Shown: positions 31,571 to 41,634 of the stretch, piece by piece
How the letters are laid out: the number at the start of each line of letters is the position of its first letter
Numbering within the stretch: position 1 is the stretch's first letter
Assembly: GCA_022766785.1 (NCBI GenBank)
Contig: JALEOL010000034.1
Span: forward strand, 1-41,634
Length of the DNA stretch: 41,634 bases
DNA from: Oscillospiraceae bacterium
GTDB taxonomy: Bacteria; Bacillota; Clostridia; Oscillospirales; Ruminococcaceae
Reading direction: 5' to 3'
The notes under the pieces: generated by a model
What the model saw: the letters and a program-made list of their open reading frames with translations, nothing else
Told to the model about the DNA's origin: nothing
The model's database searches: none
Made by a program: the position numbers and the translations under genes

Positions 31571-31653
31571 AAAAGAGTACATGCAGATGTACAGTCATTG
31601 ATTTCCAGAAGATACCAGCTATGCCGGACATACGGCACAAGGGTGAACAAATA

Positions 31654-33948
31654 ATGGACAAGAAAAAAATAAAATACATCAAGATAAAGGAGGAGCCTCA
31701 GAAGAAGCCCTCCGGCAAGAAAAAAAAGAGCCGTGCGCTGAAAAACTTCGGGCACGCCATGACGATAGTCGGCACGACATTCTCTGCGATGCTGCTGATA
31801 CTGGTTATCATGGTGTGCATCGTGGTGACGGTGCTTGCGGTGTATGTGCTGGATTTCGCGGACAAAAGCTACGACGCGAACCTGCGCAATATCGAGATGA
31901 AGTACACCAGTTTCATCTACGGCTACGACGAGAACAACGAGCTTGTCGAGATAAAGCGCCTAGCCGCTGAGCAGAACCGCGTCTGGGTGGATTATGAGGA
32001 TATCTCCCCGTACCTCGTGGACGCTGTTGTGGCTTCCGAGGACAAGCGTTTCTATACCCACAAGGGCGTTGACTGGTACCGTACCGCAGGCGCGTTCTTC
32101 TCTAACGGCGACGGCGGCGGCGGTTCCACAATAACGCAGCAGCTTGTCAAAAACCTCACCGGCGATAACGAGAGAAGCTGGGAGCGTAAGCTGCGCGAGA
32201 TATTCCGTGCGCTCAGCCTGGAGGAGAAGTACACCAAGATCGATATCCTGGAGAGCTACCTCAACCAGATCTGGTTCGGCGGAATGGTGTACGGCGTCGG
32301 CGCTGCTTCCCAGTACTATTTCGGAAAGGACGCGTCGGAGCTTAACATAGGCGAGGCTGCGGTGCTTGCCGGAATGATACGAAATCCCGGAAAGATGTCC
32401 CCCTATTTCGACCTGACGCGCAGCAAGCAGCAGCAGAATTACGCCCTGCGCTGCATGTACGAGCAGGGAATGATCACCACCAAGGAATACGAGGACTTCC
32501 GCTACAACCGTATTCAGGTGCGCTTTGCGAAGCCGGTGTACGGCGATGATTACGGATATATCGACGAACGCACGCTCATAAAGGACGACGAGCCGGAGGA
32601 TAACGACGTTCAGCAGTCCGAGGGTTACGAGGCGTACAAGTGGAACGGCGACTACACCATTACCCAGGACTGGTACGTTGACGCCGCGATAGATCAGGTG
32701 ATAACAGACTTTGCCGACCTCAAGGGTATTACCTACACCTCGGCGAAAAACGAGCTTTACAACGGCGGATATAAGATCTACATCAACGAGAATATGAAGC
32801 TCCAGAAGATACTGGAGGAGAAATACCGGGATCCCTACACGGTGCTTTCCTATTACGACCCGGCTGCGCCGGAGGAGGATCTGATACAATCGGCGTTTAT
32901 CATCATGGACTACACCGGCACGGTGCAGGCTGTGGTGGGTGGTCTTGGAGAGAAGCCCGGCGACGGTACGTTCAACCGTGCGACCCAGGCGACGCGTTCT
33001 CCGGGTTCCACGATGAAGCCTATTTCCACCTATTCGCTGGCGGTTCAGAAAAATCTCATCACATACTCCACGCTTATCCCTGACGCGCAAATCAACATCG
33101 GCACCGAGAATGCGCCGCAGTACTGGCCGGAGAACTACGGTCATATCATAGGCGACGGCACGCTGCGCCCGGCGTGGTACGGTGTTCAGCAGTCTCTTAA
33201 TACCCTTGCGGTAAGAATAGGCAGAATGAACACCACAAAGTCCATGTACACTCAGCTCACGCAGATGCTGGGCTTCACAACGCTTGTAGAGCAGGATATC
33301 GCGCTTTCTCCGCTGTCCCTCGGCGCGCTTACCTACGGCGCAAAGCTGGTGGAGGTCGCAGGAGCGTACCAGATCTTCGGAAACGGCGGCGTTTACTACC
33401 GTCCGATGTTCTACAGCAAGGTGGAGGACAGCAAGGGCAACGTTATCCTTGAGCAGGATTTCTACGGCACCCAGGCTATAGACAGCGACACCGCGTGGGT
33501 GACCAACCGAATGATCTACAAGGTGGTAAACGGCGGCACCGGCACGGGACACTACGCACAGCTTGACAATGTTGAGGTAATAGGCAAGACCGGTACCTCG
33601 AACGCTGGCACCGACCTGCTGTTCATGGGACTTACGCCGGACTATGTGGGCGGTCTGTGGATAGGCTATGACGACAGCCGCGAGATCGGCGGCGGAGACG
33701 GCTGGAAGGCTGTGGCGGCGGTCTGGAAGGAAGTTATGAAGGATATCCAGGATACCTCCGAGATACACAAGTTCACACCGGACGCAACGGTTGTGGAGAA
33801 GCCGTACTGCACTATGACGGGACTTCTCGCCACAAACAAGTGTGAATCCACCGACATCGGCTATTATCGCGCGGACAATCTCCCGGATTACTGCAACGGC
33901 AATCATAAGGAGATAAGGGCGCAGATCAGGGCGGAGAACCCGGATTGA
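31654..33948 (+). CDS. Bifunctional class A penicillin-binding protein (PBP1A type)
   Basis: This enzyme polymerises lipid II and cross-links the glycan strands. The 764-residue protein has a lysine-rich cytoplasmic N-terminus and a signal-anchor helix (about 45-70). The GT51 glycosyltransferase domain has the catalytic E129 in ASEDKRFYTHKG, then GGSTITQQLVKNL and FGGMVYGVGAASQYYFGK. The transpeptidase domain has S452 and K455 in SPGSTMKP, S514 in SLN, and K645 in KTGT. All active-site residues are intact. I choose ATG at 31654, with AAGGGTG upstream, over ATG at 31621, since homologues begin with a short basic segment. It stands alone, with its own promoter and terminator. Confidence 0.95.
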   Translation: MDKKKIKYIKIKEEPQKKPSGKKKKSRALKNFGHAMTIVGTTFSAMLLILVIMVCIVVTVLAVYVLDFADKSYDANLRNIEMKYTSFIYGYDENNELVEIKRLAAEQNRVWVDYEDISPYLVDAVVASEDKRFYTHKGVDWYRTAGAFFSNGDGGGGSTITQQLVKNLTGDNERSWERKLREIFRALSLEEKYTKIDILESYLNQIWFGGMVYGVGAASQYYFGKDASELNIGEAAVLAGMIRNPGKMSPYFDLTRSKQQQNYALRCMYEQGMITTKEYEDFRYNRIQVRFAKPVYGDDYGYIDERTLIKDDEPEDNDVQQSEGYEAYKWNGDYTITQDWYVDAAIDQVITDFADLKGITYTSAKNELYNGGYKIYINENMKLQKILEEKYRDPYTVLSYYDPAAPEEDLIQSAFIIMDYTGTVQAVVGGLGEKPGDGTFNRATQATRSPGSTMKPISTYSLAVQKNLITYSTLIPDAQINIGTENAPQYWPENYGHIIGDGTLRPAWYGVQQSLNTLAVRIGRMNTTKSMYTQLTQMLGFTTLVEQDIALSPLSLGALTYGAKLVEVAGAYQIFGNGGVYYRPMFYSKVEDSKGNVILEQDFYGTQAIDSDTAWVTNRMIYKVVNGGTGTGHYAQLDNVEVIGKTGTSNAGTDLLFMGLTPDYVGGLWIGYDDSREIGGGDGWKAVAAVWKEVMKDIQDTSEIHKFTPDATVVEKPYCTMTGLLATNKCESTDIGYYRADNLPDYCNGNHKEIRAQIRAENPD

Positions 33949-35639: not shown

Positions 35640-35740
35640 TTTATTAAAGCAGACGTTGCCGATCAAACACGAGATCTGCCCCGGACGTATTTCGCCACGG
35701 GGCTTGATCTGATACGCTGCGTACTAATCAGCGTGTTCCC
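35640..35740 (-). mobile_element. MITE-like inverted-repeat element (copy B, degenerate)
   Basis: Read on the minus strand, 35740 to about 35710 begins GGGAACACGCTGATTAG and continues GCAGCGTATC, closely matching the left end of the element between fliR and flhB (GGGATACGCTGATTAAA, then GTAGCGTATC). Within it GCCCCG and CGGGGC, flanked by GATC on both sides, form an inner hairpin, as in copy A. The other end (TTTAATAAA) is much more diverged. The upper end overlaps the stop codon of the ligase-like gene. Confidence 0.6.
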
Positions 35741-37424
35741 GGTTATCCGGGTGGGCGCACAGTATTCCTGCGAAAATTACCGCCAGCGGAATGTATACCA
35801 CCGAAATATCGTTTGTGATACCCATGACCAGCGCTCCTACCACAGAAGCGAACGCTCCTGCCATAGCGCCGCTGCCCAGGGCTGCCGCCGCGCCGCGTTT
35901 CAGCACCACCGCCGTCACCGCCAGTAAGATCAGCAGCGCCGGGATACCGCAGTACAGAGCGGTCTCAAGGTACATGCTGTGCGGCTTGTCGGTGAGAATG
36001 TTCGCGGTGCCGTGGGTGTTCAGCGCTCCCACGATGTCATTCTGTGGGAAGTAGAAGCACAGCTGCCCGGCGCCTGTTCCCTTGAATATGCACTGCCTGA
36101 GCGCCGGAAGTGTGTTGAGCCATATGTAGCCGCGCCCGGTGAGCATTCCGTAGTACTCCGAAAGCTCCGGGAACGCACTCTGCTCCAGCGGCTGGATATA
36201 GCCGTTAAGCCCGACGTAGCCAAGTCCGCCGTCGTACCTCGCGAACCTCAGCTTGTCGGCGTAGCCCAGGTCTAGCGACAGGATATCGCCGTCAAGCCGT
36301 GCGGTTATGCCGGCGATCTCCGCGGTATCACACGAGGAGGTGAGCAGGGAAGTCTCCCCGGAACGTTCATCGGTGAGACTTATGCCGTCCTGTTCAATGC
36401 GGATAAGAAGTTCGCCTTTGCCGGTAATCCGCAGAGTGCTTTCGGTCAATTCCGCTCCGGTGAGCTGCCAGCTGCTTTCCGGCGAATAGGACACGCTGTT
36501 GCCTGCTCCGGCGGTGAGTATACCCGGCTGGAATATCAGCAGCGCCGCAGCAGGCAGAGCCGCCGCAAACGGGATAAACAGGCGTGTAAGCGGCATTTTT
36601 TTACCTTTCGCCGCCCTGATGATACCGAACACCGCAAGCGCTATAACCTCGGCGAGCATTCCGTAGAACGCCGTGCTGGACATTGAGGAAAGCGCGGTGC
36701 ACAGTGCCGCTCCGGCGGAAACCGCCTGTACTGCGGCGGCTGCGTTCCGCTGTTCAGAAAGGGCGCATGCCAGCAGGAACGGGAACAGCAGTGCGCAGAA
36801 CTCACCGCAGGCAGAGCTGTTGCCGAAAAGCAGCATCGTTCCGGCGCTTTCTCCGGTGTGCCACAGGATATCCGTCAGCTGACCGAAAGTCTTTTCGATC
36901 AGCAGCATAACGCCGCAGAGAAGCCCCGATACGGTTGCACCTGTGGTGATGTACCGAAGATTTTCCCGGGAGAAGCCACCCTCGAGTGCCGCGAGGAACA
37001 GCGCCGCGAAGCCGATAAAGGCGGCAATTCCGGTGTTCTCTGAGGATATTCCCCAGAATGACAGCTCAGGGTGGAGCGAGAATATCCCGGATACCACCGC
37101 GCAAAGCAGAATAAGACCTGTTCCTGCAAGCGGCAAAAGCGCCTTTCTGTCAAGCAGCGGAGACTTTCTCGGGTGGTCGGGGAAGATCCTCTCGCCAAGC
37201 CAGAACAGTATCAGGCAAGCTCCCAGCGCGAACAGAACGATCTCACGGCTGCGCACGCACAGGTCGGTGAGCGCTCCTCCGTGGGCAGGCACGAACGGAA
37301 GCTCAGCGTCGCTAAGTTTCAGCGTCACCGGGAAGCAGATCACCGGATACAGGGCGATAAATATCCCGATGAGCATCATCGGAAACCTGGTGTAGACAGG
37401 CTCTTTAATTGGCTTGTGTTTCAT
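35724..37424 (-). CDS. O-antigen ligase/polymerase-like (Wzy_C-type) membrane protein
   Basis: A 566-residue polytopic protein with about ten to twelve hydrophobic helices, no signal peptide and a basic N-terminus (KHKPIKEPVYTRFP). Between helices, about residues 310-440, is a large outer domain of beta-rich sequence, followed by GRGYIWLNTLPALRQCIFKG and, after it, TDKPHSMYLETALYCGIPAL. This is the pattern of the O-antigen ligase (WaaL/Wzy) family, with conserved Arg, Gly-x-Gly and His before a final helix. Such enzymes transfer or polymerise lipid-linked glycans outside the membrane. I choose ATG at 37424, with AAGAGGTG upstream. It follows the PBP-like gene by 13 bases in the same operon. 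Its last residues and TAG stop lie in a repeat element. Confidence 0.78.
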   Translation of the reverse strand: MKHKPIKEPVYTRFPMMLIGIFIALYPVICFPVTLKLSDAELPFVPAHGGALTDLCVRSREIVLFALGACLILFWLGERIFPDHPRKSPLLDRKALLPLAGTGLILLCAVVSGIFSLHPELSFWGISSENTGIAAFIGFAALFLAALEGGFSRENLRYITTGATVSGLLCGVMLLIEKTFGQLTDILWHTGESAGTMLLFGNSSACGEFCALLFPFLLACALSEQRNAAAAVQAVSAGAALCTALSSMSSTAFYGMLAEVIALAVFGIIRAAKGKKMPLTRLFIPFAAALPAAALLIFQPGILTAGAGNSVSYSPESSWQLTGAELTESTLRITGKGELLIRIEQDGISLTDERSGETSLLTSSCDTAEIAGITARLDGDILSLDLGYADKLRFARYDGGLGYVGLNGYIQPLEQSAFPELSEYYGMLTGRGYIWLNTLPALRQCIFKGTGAGQLCFYFPQNDIVGALNTHGTANILTDKPHSMYLETALYCGIPALLILLAVTAVVLKRGAAAALGSGAMAGAFASVVGALVMGITNDISVVYIPLAVIFAGILCAHPDNREHAD

Positions 37425-37437
37425 CGGGGACACCTCT

Positions 37438-39210
37438 TCAGCCGTGTTTTCCGCATTTATCCGGGAGAGTTCCGTCAGCGAACCAGCCTGTCTCGGTATT
37501 AGTGCAGCCCTCCGCTGCGACGCCGCCGCTTTCCTGGCAGATCACGGCGCTCCTGGTATTTCCGCAGGGGGTGAACTCTGTGCGCTCCGGCTGCACCGCC
37601 GAGATCACCGAGTTCCACACAGACGCCGTGCCGGGATAGGAGCCTTCCTGTATCAGCTGTTCGCTGTCGTCGCATCCTATCCACAATGCGGCGCACATAT
37701 CCGCCGTGCCGCCTGCGAACCAGTTGTCGGTCACGACCTCGTTTGTGTTGTCACGGGTGCCGGTCTTGCCGATGACCTCGATACCGTCAATGGCGGCTTT
37801 TTTGCCAAGACCGTCCTCCATGGTGACGTTTGAGAGCAGCATTCTGTTCATTATCCAGGAGGTCTCCGGGGAGATCACCTGTTCGGTCTGGGCTTCCCAG
37901 GTGTACAGGGTCTTGCCGTCCCGGGTGGTTATGCTGTTGATGTAATGCGGCGGTGTGTAGCTGCCGCCGTTGCCGAATATCTGGTATGCCGCCGCCATTT
38001 CTGCCGGGGTCACGCCTTCGATGAGATAGCCCATGCCCATGCCGATCGGCACATTGTCGCCCTGGAGCAGCGAGGAAAATCCCAGCTTTCTCAGGAACTC
38101 AAGGCATTTGTCGCCGCCCAGCAGCTTTTCAAGGTACACCGCGCAGGTGTTCTTTGACTGCCGCAGCGCATAGGAGGTCATGACCTCGCCCTCAAATTCG
38201 CCGTTGTAGTTCTGCGGCCAGTTCATTTCGTCCGGCTTATCCGGAATAAATCCCGACCAGGTGGTAAGACCGTCCTCCAGCGCCGGGGAATACACGCTCA
38301 GCGGCTTTATTGAGGAGCCGGGGGAGCGCGGAATGGCGCACCTGTTCAGCGTTGTGCCGTCGCTGGCGCCGCCGGTGCAGCCCAGTACCGCGCCGGAGTA
38401 ATCGCTCACCTGCATTGCCAGCTGGAAGTGCCGCATAGCCGGCTTTTCGGTGATCTCTTTGTCAAGGGCGGACTGCACATTAACGTCCATGGTGGAGTTT
38501 ATGATAAGCTCTCCGCCGTAGACAAGCTCGGTCTGCTCACTGCCGGAATAACCAAGACCGTCCAGGATAGAGTAAAGCTCGTCCAGCAGCTGTGCGTAGT
38601 AGCTGCCGTCGGCGGTGCAGATATCCTGCGCGGCAAACGACACGCTGCCATATTCCTCCGCGATCTCAGCCTTTGACATGCCCTGGAGCCTTTTTGACCT
38701 GCATATATCCGCAAGCACTCCTGCTTCCTCGGTGGTGAGGTTCTCCGGCTTTTTCCCGAAGTAGAACGCCGCAGCGTTGTCCGCGCCGCATATCCCGTTT
38801 CCGAAATACGCCGTGGAGCAGTACAGCTCCATAAGCTCCTGGTCGGAGCGCCCGTCCTCCAGCGCCTTTGTCCGGGCGATAAGCTCCGTCACACCAGCGT
38901 CGGGGTAAAGCTCCAGCACGGTGAGTTCCGTCGCTGAATGAACACCCATGACGCTGGATACCGGATCCATTCTCAGCCTGCCGCCGCAGATGATCTTCAT
39001 GTTTTCGGCGCTGAGTGACAGCCCGGTGCGCAGTCTGCCAATGGAATAGACCGGCTCCTCACCGGAGAGTATCACGGTGCTGTCCGCAGCCGTGCTGAAC
39101 TCTCCGGAGGCTATGGAGTAATACACCCCGGACATTATCCCGACAGCCGCCAGAGACAGCGCTGCTATGCCGCTGACCGCAATGATCGCGGCTTTTACCG
39201 GTTTTTTCAC
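37438..39210 (-). CDS. Class A PBP-like protein with degenerate glycosyltransferase domain
   Basis: The 590-residue protein has a signal-anchor helix (about 7-30) and a class A layout. The transpeptidase domain is complete: S299 and K302 in SPGSSIKP, S352 in SKN, and K482 in KTGT. In the GT51 region (about 60-180) the later part is recognisable (TAYFGNGICGADNAAAFYFG, parallel to the intact PBP at 31654). However, the catalytic motif EDxxFxxHxG is replaced by CGGRLRMDPV, and the TITQQL motif is replaced by TELTVLEL. Polymerase activity is therefore probably lost. The start is GTG at 39210, overlapping the stop of the upstream gene (GTGA). It is probably a dedicated transpeptidase for its operon partner (inference). 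Confidence 0.88.
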   Translation of the reverse strand: MKKPVKAAIIAVSGIAALSLAAVGIMSGVYYSIASGEFSTAADSTVILSGEEPVYSIGRLRTGLSLSAENMKIICGGRLRMDPVSSVMGVHSATELTVLELYPDAGVTELIARTKALEDGRSDQELMELYCSTAYFGNGICGADNAAAFYFGKKPENLTTEEAGVLADICRSKRLQGMSKAEIAEEYGSVSFAAQDICTADGSYYAQLLDELYSILDGLGYSGSEQTELVYGGELIINSTMDVNVQSALDKEITEKPAMRHFQLAMQVSDYSGAVLGCTGGASDGTTLNRCAIPRSPGSSIKPLSVYSPALEDGLTTWSGFIPDKPDEMNWPQNYNGEFEGEVMTSYALRQSKNTCAVYLEKLLGGDKCLEFLRKLGFSSLLQGDNVPIGMGMGYLIEGVTPAEMAAAYQIFGNGGSYTPPHYINSITTRDGKTLYTWEAQTEQVISPETSWIMNRMLLSNVTMEDGLGKKAAIDGIEVIGKTGTRDNTNEVVTDNWFAGGTADMCAALWIGCDDSEQLIQEGSYPGTASVWNSVISAVQPERTEFTPCGNTRSAVICQESGGVAAEGCTNTETGWFADGTLPDKCGKHG

Positions 39211-41634
39211 TGCTCTTCCGCCCTGACGATAGAGTACCTGCCGTCAGCCAGTATTGAGAAATACCCGTCGCTGAGCGCCTGTGCGGATTCGCAGGGGAAT
39301 TCCTCGGAAATGGTCTGACCTTCTTTATTGATAAGTACGCCGGTGCTGCCGGTGCATGCTATCGCAACGCCGCCGCTGAACTTGGTCGCGTGCTTGTAGC
39401 TGCTGATAGTATTGAAGCCGGAATCAAGATATGTGCTGCCGCTGGAGGTCTGAGCCACCCACACAGAATCGTCAGCCTTTGAGATATCCTGGTACCAGTC
39501 ACTGAGCTTTGTCCAGGAGGAAATGCTCTGTGCCGCGGTCTCATACTCCGAGTTGTACCACTCCGGCTTGTAAACCGCGTATTCCGTGGAGGACACTACC
39601 CCGTCGCTGGTTGTGCGGCAGATAAGGACGTGATCGCTGTCGAACACCTTTGCTATCTGCATGTCGGTGTCAGTCGGGCCGCAGCCGCAGAACTTGGAGG
39701 AGCTGCCGGAGGTCTTTACAAGCTGGAACATGTCACCGGCGTTTATCGCGCTTATCTTGTCCGTTCCGTCGTCGCAAACCGGGAACGCCGCTCCGGTCTC
39801 GGCTGTTACGTTATATTCCTCAAAGGAAACGTCAGAGCCGTCCAGCTTCAGCTTGTAGGTGTAGTACATCGCGGAATTGCTGCCGTTTTTCTCGTGAAGC
39901 TCGGTGAACGTGAAGTATATCTCGCCGTTGAACACGCTGCACCCGGTGGTCATCACAGAGCCGGTGCCAAGCTCCTTGCTCCTGCTCTTGAAGCCGCTGC
40001 GCAGGAACTTCGGAACATCGCTGTTTTCCGTCACGAATTCCGCAGGCAGGGTGTACAGGTTCTTGCCGTCAATGCCGGAAATGCGGTATCCGCCGTAGTC
40101 CTGAACGACTACCACGGGATCGGGGCTGCTTCCCCACCAGACGTTATAGCAGGGAGGTATACCCATTACCTTGTTGCCGTCCCTGTCGATTATCCAGGAT
40201 ATATTGCTGCTGGAATATCTGCGCTTTCCGTCCCAGGTGGTGCTGACAAAGGCGTATTTGCCGCCCTCGCCGAAGAACGGTGAAATGTAGGAATACAGCA
40301 TAGTGCTGCCGGAGCCGGACACGGTGGACAGGCGGTATCTTCCGTTGTATTCCACTGCGAAGATATCAGAGCCGCTGCCCTGGAAGCTGCCGGATACATC
40401 GTTGAAGTGCCCGGTGGAATCGTTGCCCGGCGCAACCGTTACAATGCTGTAGGTAGCGCCTGCCGGTTCTGCAATGGGTTCGGTGGTGACTTCTGCGGTG
40501 GAGACATCAACGGTTGAGTCGCTGCCGCCGTTAAGCTCGTCCAGCATTTTCTTTATCTCGGGATCGCCGGTCTTGTCATAGCCGTCCTGGAGGTATTTTT
40601 TCGCGATATCAGGCTTACCCAGACCGATATACGCCTTTGCAATGCCGATGTACGCCTCGGCGCAGGTATCGTCAAGGTTTATCGCCTTTTCGAATTCGAT
40701 TATCGCCTTGTCGTATTCGCCGTCGTCCAGGTATTTGTTACCGAGTTCCACCAGCTTGTCAACGCTGCTGTTGCTGGTAAGGAAATACGCTGCAACGCCG
40801 CCTGCGGCTCCAAGTCCGACTAATGCTGAAGCGCCGATGATGATGAACTTTTTGCGGTTCTTGAAGCCCTTGGGTGTGGTCTTTTCCTGCTCCTCGCCGC
40901 CGTTGTCGGTGTCAGAGCCTGCGCCCGACAGCAGTACAGTTTCGCCGTCGTGGGAGCTGCCGTCCTTGGGGAGGTCGGCTCCCGGCAGGTCGTCGGCAGA
41001 ACGCGTGTCGATAGGAGCGCCCTGGGTGTCAGTTCTGCCGCGGTTCTTTACGGCAACGGTAGCTTCCCAGGACTTTTCCTCGCCGTCGTTTGATTTATCT
41101 TCGGTTTTCGGGGCAGCCGGAGCGGTCTGCTCGGGGATAGCCTTGGAGAGTACGGGGGAGGGTTTATTCCCGGTCTGTTCCGCCGCAGCTTTTGGAGCTT
41201 CGGGGAGTTTTTCCGGTGTGGGAGCAACAGGTTTTTCCTGCGCCGGAGTTACCGGGCTGGACTTGGTGTTCGCCGGAGCTGAGGGGGTGGGTGCTGTGGG
41301 TGCTCCGGGGTTATTCTGCACGGGTCTGAACGGTGCAGCCGCTGTGTTTACCGGAGTTCCGGGGAAAGGCGCAGTGGGAACGCCGGGATTGTTCGGCATG
41401 GGATTGTACGGGTGAGCTGCCATATTCGGCTGGTTCATCGGAGCACTGGGATAGGGATTGGGGGTGAACTGCGCCTGTCCGAAATGACCCATTGGCGCAG
41501 TGTTGTCCACGGGGCGCGCTGCTGTGAATCCCCCGTTCGGGGACGGTGCAGGGTTCGGGCTGCTGTCCGGGCGTTTGGTAGTCGCTCCGCAGAAGCCGCA
41601 GAATTTCACGCCGTCCTTTATTTCTTTACCGCAT
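39207..41634 (-). CDS. Zinc-ribbon, TPR and beta-propeller-like membrane protein (5' end outside window)
   Basis: The frame stays open to the window edge and reads CGKEIKDGVKFCGFCGA at the start, the second half of a double CxxC zinc ribbon, so the true start lies beyond base 41634. The GTG at 41609 is an internal valine. After the ribbon comes a long Pro/Ala/Asn-rich disordered region, then a charged stretch. One transmembrane helix follows (FIIIGASALVGLGAAGGVAA), then about two TPR repeats (KYLDDGEYDKAIIEFEKAIN, then AYIGIAKAYIGLGKPDIAKK). The large beta-rich C-terminal part has WG-repeat-like pieces (STGVLINKEGQTISEEF). The ribbon would be cytoplasmic and the rest outside. Exact function is unknown; a sensor or scaffold is a guess. 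It overlaps the next gene by 4 bases. Confidence 0.82.
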   Translation of the reverse strand, partial: CGKEIKDGVKFCGFCGATTKRPDSSPNPAPSPNGGFTAARPVDNTAPMGHFGQAQFTPNPYPSAPMNQPNMAAHPYNPMPNNPGVPTAPFPGTPVNTAAAPFRPVQNNPGAPTAPTPSAPANTKSSPVTPAQEKPVAPTPEKLPEAPKAAAEQTGNKPSPVLSKAIPEQTAPAAPKTEDKSNDGEEKSWEATVAVKNRGRTDTQGAPIDTRSADDLPGADLPKDGSSHDGETVLLSGAGSDTDNGGEEQEKTTPKGFKNRKKFIIIGASALVGLGAAGGVAAYFLTSNSSVDKLVELGNKYLDDGEYDKAIIEFEKAINLDDTCAEAYIGIAKAYIGLGKPDIAKKYLQDGYDKTGDPEIKKMLDELNGGSDSTVDVSTAEVTTEPIAEPAGATYSIVTVAPGNDSTGHFNDVSGSFQGSGSDIFAVEYNGRYRLSTVSGSGSTMLYSYISPFFGEGGKYAFVSTTWDGKRRYSSSNISWIIDRDGNKVMGIPPCYNVWWGSSPDPVVVVQDYGGYRISGIDGKNLYTLPAEFVTENSDVPKFLRSGFKSRSKELGTGSVMTTGCSVFNGEIYFTFTELHEKNGSNSAMYYTYKLKLDGSDVSFEEYNVTAETGAAFPVCDDGTDKISAINAGDMFQLVKTSGSSSKFCGCGPTDTDMQIAKVFDSDHVLICRTTSDGVVSSTEYAVYKPEWYNSEYETAAQSISSWTKLSDWYQDISKADDSVWVAQTSSGSTYLDSGFNTISSYKHATKFSGGVAIACTGSTGVLINKEGQTISEEFPCESAQALSDGYFSILADGRYSIVRAEEQ

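Follow-up and report, generated by a model that had tools for sequence, protein, structure and literature searches.

Peptidoglycan polymerization is known from GT51 and SEDS enzymes. Coupling of a SEDS enzyme to a penicillin-binding protein (PBP) is described for RodA and PBP2 in the accessible part of PMC10257715, and the protein pair reported here is likened to it from genes and models. The excerpted literature gives His as the residue at the catalytic position of WaaL and Asp at that of SEDS enzymes. The predicted S-layer O-transferases WsaB and WsfB carry a Wzy_C domain and are accompanied by a TPR motif (in WsfB) or by a neighboring TPR protein (WsaA), according to the available portion of PMC2943079.

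The window, i.e. the whole stretch of 41,634 nucleotides that was analyzed, is one entire contig (G000:C17) of a genome that is 85.75% complete. Three minus-strand open frames lie end to end in the ORF list (35724-37433, 37438-39210 and 39207-41633). The first, LIG (35724..37433, minus strand), is a polytopic protein of the O-antigen ligase/polymerase type with 569 aa from a GTG start, although an ATG at 37424 is also possible. The second, PBPd (37438..39210, minus strand), is a class-A-derived PBP of 590 aa that combines a transpeptidase domain with no more of GT51 than its C-terminal part, as indicated by Pfam and by 16 copies with the same loss (eight of them run through Pfam) that form one clade. 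The third, ZTPR (39207..41634, minus strand, with the frame running to 41633), comprises in Pfam a zinc ribbon, TPR and a C-terminal part without a Pfam match, together with a membrane segment recognized by eye. ZTPR is cut within the zinc ribbon because the window is one whole contig. The sequence-only reading had described three tightly linked genes with a 4-base overlap and a 13-base gap. The overlap, between the ZTPR and PBPd frames, was confirmed, and the gap between PBPd and LIG is 13 bases from the LIG ATG at 37424 or 4 bases from the GTG at 37433. Much of the remaining window (1177-24853) is occupied by a flagellar gene cluster with FliF, FliK, hook and rod proteins, an FliN-type switch protein, FlhB, a FHIPEP export protein and a sigma factor.

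The final 141 bases of the window are found again, letter for letter, at the end of contig C42 (L210), and a genome search located them nowhere else. The first codons of ZTPR thus appear to lie on C42, and a C42-C17 join is likely from the assembly. Read from C42, the genes immediately before ZTPR encode a TPR-bearing Ser/Thr kinase, another zinc-ribbon/TPR protein and a secreted protein (L210 14299-19057). This order suggests a six-gene run, made up of the C42 genes followed by ZTPR, PBPd and LIG, that may be under kinase control. A scan for promoters and terminators performed no better than on shuffled sequence.

PBPd matched the transpeptidase profile PF00905 in Pfam (E 4.8e-25) and carries the SxxK motif as SSIK (residues 299-302, 38305..38316), the SxN motif as SKN (residues 352-354, 38149..38157) and KTGT (residues 482-485, 37756..37767), all on the minus strand. 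In contrast, the GT51 match (PF00912) covers no more than profile positions 95-153 of 178; PBPd lacks the N-terminal portion, where motifs 1 and 2 lie, and keeps a C-terminal remnant at residues 114-172 (38695..38871, minus strand). The earlier description of a PBP that retains SxxK, SxN and KTG but lacks the GT51 catalytic motif was therefore accurate. We compared 16 distinct PBPd proteins, from the window, G028, nine genomes of one genus, and loci L073, L074, L075, L076 and L080; those records that are named carry the labels Ruminococcus, Oscillospiraceae or Clostridia. The three transpeptidase motifs were kept in 16/16, and some columns of the GT51 remnant were invariant in all of them. GT51 motif 1 or 2 was present in none of the 16, whereas among 35 class A PBPs motif 1 was found in 34 and motif 2 in 35, as scored with sequence patterns for these motifs. 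Homologues with intact GT51 residues had been named beforehand as a possible refutation; the homologues share the loss. In a quick LG+G4 tree of the transpeptidase columns, all 16 PBPd formed one clade (SH-aLRT 98), within which the long branches of the window and G028 join each other, a grouping that the program flagged as possibly false. The dN/dS of PBPd was 0.10-0.25 in six pairs, and the protein is under purifying selection. An artefact or a lone decaying pseudogene is ruled out by these values together with the 16 copies that keep their catalytic residues.

A lipobox pattern fitted 13 of the 14 PBPd copies outside the window and G028, and it also fitted 1 of the 35 class A PBPs. The fourteenth copy (G793) shows the same LTAC by eye, behind a start codon that was placed late; the window and G028 copies did not fit the pattern. 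In the predicted structure of PBPd (mean pLDDT 64.5), the transpeptidase domain is usable and residues 1-144 are unreliable. The best matches in sequence and among solved folds, the latter searched with this low-confidence model, were PBP4 of Listeria, which we take to be class A, followed by PBP1A, PBP1B and PBP2 with GT51. The N-terminal pedestal/dimerization domain of class B gave no Pfam match in the window PBPd at E up to 1.

LIG matched Wzy_C weakly (E 5.5e-5; 23.4 bits, under the cut-off of 31.7), and of the two other LIG proteins scanned, that of G774 also scored below the cut-off (16.9 bits) and that of L073 above it (32.8). Its predicted structure has a GT-C_B fold and resembles WaaL, including the conserved Arg and His; in the fold search the best match was WaaL and the second was SEDS enzymes. 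The weak profile match and the WaaL-like predicted fold agree with the initial view of LIG as a polytopic protein of the O-antigen ligase/polymerase type. R434 in the GRGYIW motif (36132..36134, minus strand) is a candidate Und-PP-binding Arg, by analogy with the WaaL and SEDS papers, and H485 in the DKPH motif (35979..35981, minus strand) is a candidate catalytic His, by analogy with WaaL. Both residues are invariant in 15/15 LIG proteins and in 44/44 rows of a wider alignment. A beta-rich insert at residues 326-407 (36213..36458, minus strand) has ten strands in the model and probably lies on the extracytoplasmic side. The idea of a SEDS-bPBP-like synthase, raised by the sequence-only reading, is thus upheld in that the LIG model resembles SEDS second only to WaaL, but not at the candidate catalytic residue, which is His as in WaaL instead of the Asp of SEDS. 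Membership of LIG in the SEDS family by sequence is ruled out: at E up to 1, PF01098 gave no match in the LIG of the window, although it detects two genes elsewhere in this genome.

PBPd is rare among relatives of the window. Some PBP match was obtained in 149 of 150 relatives, and besides the window a clear PBPd was found only in G028 (360 bits; other listed matches ≤209); likewise, among the 43 genomes of the window's genus, a clear PBPd was confined to the window and G028. At the family level (396 genomes), G774 stood out with 285 bits vs 209.5 for the next. The genus of G774 is taken to include Ruminococcus because the contigs of L077, which bears the label Ruminococcus flavefaciens, and of L078 appear from their length and proteins to be those of G800 and G838; they were counted once. 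In this genus, PBPd was present in 9/80 genomes at ≥587 bits (next match, 184), and the same nine carried LIG at ≥544 bits (next, 36), adjoining PBPd in 9/9. At these scores the presence and absence of LIG and PBPd were concordant in 80/80 genomes; in the better-quality subset of 42 genomes (≥90% complete, ≤5% contaminated), both were present in 4 and neither in 38. Because the nine linked genomes belong to one genus with shared ancestry, they do not represent nine independent events. Nevertheless, LIG and PBPd remain paired even where PBPd identity within the genus falls to 49%. Overall, LIG adjoins 15 of the 16 PBPd genes. No LIG was found in G028, a genome that is 76% complete and has its PBPd on a 4270-base contig. 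The 14 operons other than that of the window have LIG first, with frames overlapping by 1-14 bases (starts as placed by hand); in the window the order is reversed, PBPd preceding LIG by 4 bases.

Because of this joint presence, the overlap of frames, the PBP's loss of its own GT51 motifs and the fit of its partner to a GT-C fold, we favor, with a probability of roughly 0.4, a coupled pair in which LIG and PBPd work as glycosyltransferase and transpeptidase in the manner of SEDS-bPBP synthases. The two enzymes would form a unit of their own at the outer face of the cytoplasmic membrane. LIG, as a WaaL/Wzy-type GT-C enzyme, would move or polymerize an undecaprenyl-pyrophosphate-linked glycan, and PBPd, a putative DD-transpeptidase that gave up its own glycosyltransferase, would cross-link the LIG product or anchor it to peptidoglycan. 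The substrate could be lipid II or another lipid-linked glycan that is fixed on peptidoglycan or on a secreted protein. The usual third member may be one of a set of secreted proteins that share a signal peptide, acting as client or organizer. In this scheme we infer catalysis by LIG and PBPd, their physical contact, a joint product and the role of the third gene. The window also encodes an intact class A PBP (31621-33948, plus strand) and its genome contains two SEDS (PF01098) genes; therefore, PBPd is not the cell's only wall-synthesis route, and the pair is more likely to make a specialized surface or wall material than the bulk of the wall.

The third gene was first assigned to ZTPR. In Pfam, ZTPR matched TPR_2 (E 8.4e-8) and, partially, Zn_Ribbon_1 (E 2.3e-4; 21.3 bits vs a cut-off of 25). 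No blastp match to ZTPR at E 1e-4 was obtained in the compared stretches beside the other 15 PBPd genes, which rules it out as a conserved partner. Conservation of the neighborhood, proposed beforehand as a check, therefore holds for LIG and PBPd, at 15/16 PBPd genes, and was not seen for the zinc-ribbon/TPR gene. At 13 of the 16 PBPd loci the gene run also includes a secreted protein, which in the window operon lies before ZTPR; in G843 (L174 1-5564), two tandem copies of this secreted third gene follow PBPd. The C-terminal half of ZTPR shows no similarity to the secreted proteins (hhalign probability 3.6%). Among seven third-gene proteins from PBPd loci, four scored above the Pfam cut-off for dockerin and two above that for WG repeats; the G028 and window proteins had no Pfam match.

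Secreted proteins with differing mature parts share a signal-peptide motif, roughly M(K/N)RxxRKxxxF (L072, L073, L074, L075, L080, L171-L174, L053 and L210). The motif was detected in 18 distinct ORFs among 1282 ORF entries, all 18 in PBPd loci, a count that has to be read with a motif derived from these proteins, loci biased to them, overlapping loci counted repeatedly and some ORFs being one gene cut differently. The secreted protein of the window operon, on C42, starts with MKRPIKKALGF. In hhalign, only 20 residues of its signal peptide align with the secreted proteins of other operons (probability 80%). The G028 protein matched that of the window at E 3e-9 and that of L078 weakly, at E 7e-4. 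By sequence, homology of the window protein to those of other operons is weak, and we place it in the set because of its signal motif, its position, the G028-window match and the weak G028-L078 match.

The secreted proteins bear on the main rival explanation, in which LIG acts as a protein O-oligosaccharyltransferase or as a surface-glycan ligase, with the neighboring secreted protein as its client, and PBPd has an accessory role, opening or cross-linking peptidoglycan at the site where the glycoprotein is inserted. Because Wzy_C S-layer O-transferases occur with TPR partners, as described in the accessible part of PMC2943079, and a TPR gene of the window lies two genes away from LIG, we regard this explanation as a serious one, although on balance unlikely. 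The regular presence of the secreted gene is consistent with it, as are the Thr-rich tract that precedes the dockerin in the G774 secreted protein and the dockerin, WG-repeat or SLH proteins that adjoin some LIG relatives without PBPd. However, the window's secreted protein has no Thr-rich tract, and in G857, G823 and G862 the secreted gene is absent directly downstream with LIG-PBPd intact. Glycosylation of a client also offers no reason for the near-strict pairing of LIG with PBPd.

Elsewhere, LIG is rare. LIG was found in G122 and G069 among the 150 relatives, and besides the window only in G122 at E < 1e-20 among 394 genomes of the order. At the class level, 45 of 391 genomes had matches with E up to 1e-20, the relatives reaching ≤268 bits vs 624 for the window. 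In eight genomes of the window's genus, its own included, the LIG match falls on open frames of 1182-1337 aa; in L055 (G000:C35, 977-4879, minus strand), one 1300-aa protein combines an initiating sugar transferase (Bac_transf, E 4.8e-68) with a Wzy_C ligase/polymerase domain. A scan of 84,980 species with two peptide patterns kept 80 of 89 relatives, variants such as DKPHC falling outside the second pattern. PBPd was present in 7 of the 80 loci, a minimum for the whole collection, and tblastn detected no PBP in 73 of the 80, some of which are incomplete, indicating that LIG-type enzymes do not need a PBP. Similarly, tblastn found no PBP in 19 further class-level LIG loci (window excluded; flanks up to ~1.5 kb). 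Of 44 neighbors of LIG-family genes scanned, 11 matched Polysacc_synt_2, 7 transpeptidase, 3 SLH, 3 dockerin and 2 WG repeats. In L083, a SpoIIP protein (Pfam) and a polysaccharide-deacetylase-like gene (by eye) lie upstream of a LIG-family gene that has no PBPd, and L085 looks alike by eye. By eye and in a Pfam sample, the PBPd pairs are surrounded by a transglutaminase-like protein, a polysaccharide deacetylase with dockerin, a sugar nucleotidyltransferase, a YfhO protein, a cellulase, regulators and transporters, and no glycan-assembly or polysaccharide gene cluster was seen there.

These LIG relatives without a PBP would also be expected if LIG and PBPd merely shared an operon and a time of expression and acted on separate substrates. 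The reversed gene order of the window fits this explanation as well. We consider it quite unlikely nonetheless, in view of a pairing that persists at 49% PBPd identity in one genus, the overlapping frames and the 80/80 concordance. The least probable alternative, that PBPd does not build wall but senses beta-lactams or muropeptides, or acts as a decoy for them, and thereby controls LIG, could draw on the lipoprotein-type start (fitted by pattern in 13/14 copies other than those of the window and G028, and recognized by eye in the fourteenth), the lost glycosyltransferase part and the TPR-bearing Ser/Thr kinase encoded upstream in the window's operon, but all three transpeptidase motifs are kept and no kinase was seen by eye in the other operons.

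The coupled pair remains our preferred reading, with several points against it: a clear PBPd occurs in 2/43 genomes of the window's own genus, G028 has no LIG found, 73/80 LIG loci show no PBP by tblastn, the candidate catalytic residue is of the WaaL type, and tree support for the PBPd-paired LIG proteins as a set is only 42, the window row being a long branch. A bolder version, which we find doubtful, is that the pair is a further kind of wall synthase, separate from and convergent to SEDS-bPBP, in which a WaaL/Wzy-type enzyme took over the polymerization of lipid II, or of a relative bearing a peptide, from a class A PBP that was stripped of its GT51 catalytic part and became a lipoprotein in Ruminococcus-type operons. 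If lipid II is indeed the substrate of LIG, this would be new. A conserved operon that joins another Und-PP-using enzyme lineage to a transpeptidase without GT51 motifs would show how such pairs arise, and would connect surface glycan ligation with wall cross-linking in fiber-degrading gut and rumen bacteria. In a literature search with most subscription journals and all preprints outside its reach, and hence as weak evidence, we found no described O-antigen-ligase-type enzyme paired with a PBP; within the same limits, no described lipoprotein PBPs or class A PBPs lacking GT51 were found.

Compared with known systems, LIG differs from WaaL O-antigen ligases and Wzy polymerases (CAZy clan GT-C1) in its beta-rich insert, its PBP partner and the absence of a visible adjacent polysaccharide cluster. 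With WsaB/WsfB and the TPR partner WsaA, as far as the available text on them extends, the locus shares a Wzy_C enzyme, a TPR partner and a secreted surface protein as a possible client, but that text names no PBP, and here the TPR gene is seen in the window operon only. PBPd resembles class A PBPs (PF00912 and PF00905) in its transpeptidase domain, C-terminal tail and C-terminal GT51 remnant, and differs from them in lacking GT51 motifs 1 and 2 throughout and in the lipobox pattern of most copies. From SEDS-bPBP synthases (RodA-PBP2, FtsW-FtsI), the pair differs in that LIG has no match to PF01098, the profile of SEDS (CAZy GT119), and carries a candidate catalytic His of the WaaL type where SEDS has an essential Asp, a comparison made at the sequence level; in addition, PBPd is class-A-derived and lacks the class B N-terminal domain in Pfam. 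What the pair has in common with these synthases is a GT-C_B-fold membrane enzyme beside a transpeptidase-only PBP, and SEDS enzymes are the second-best fold match of LIG.
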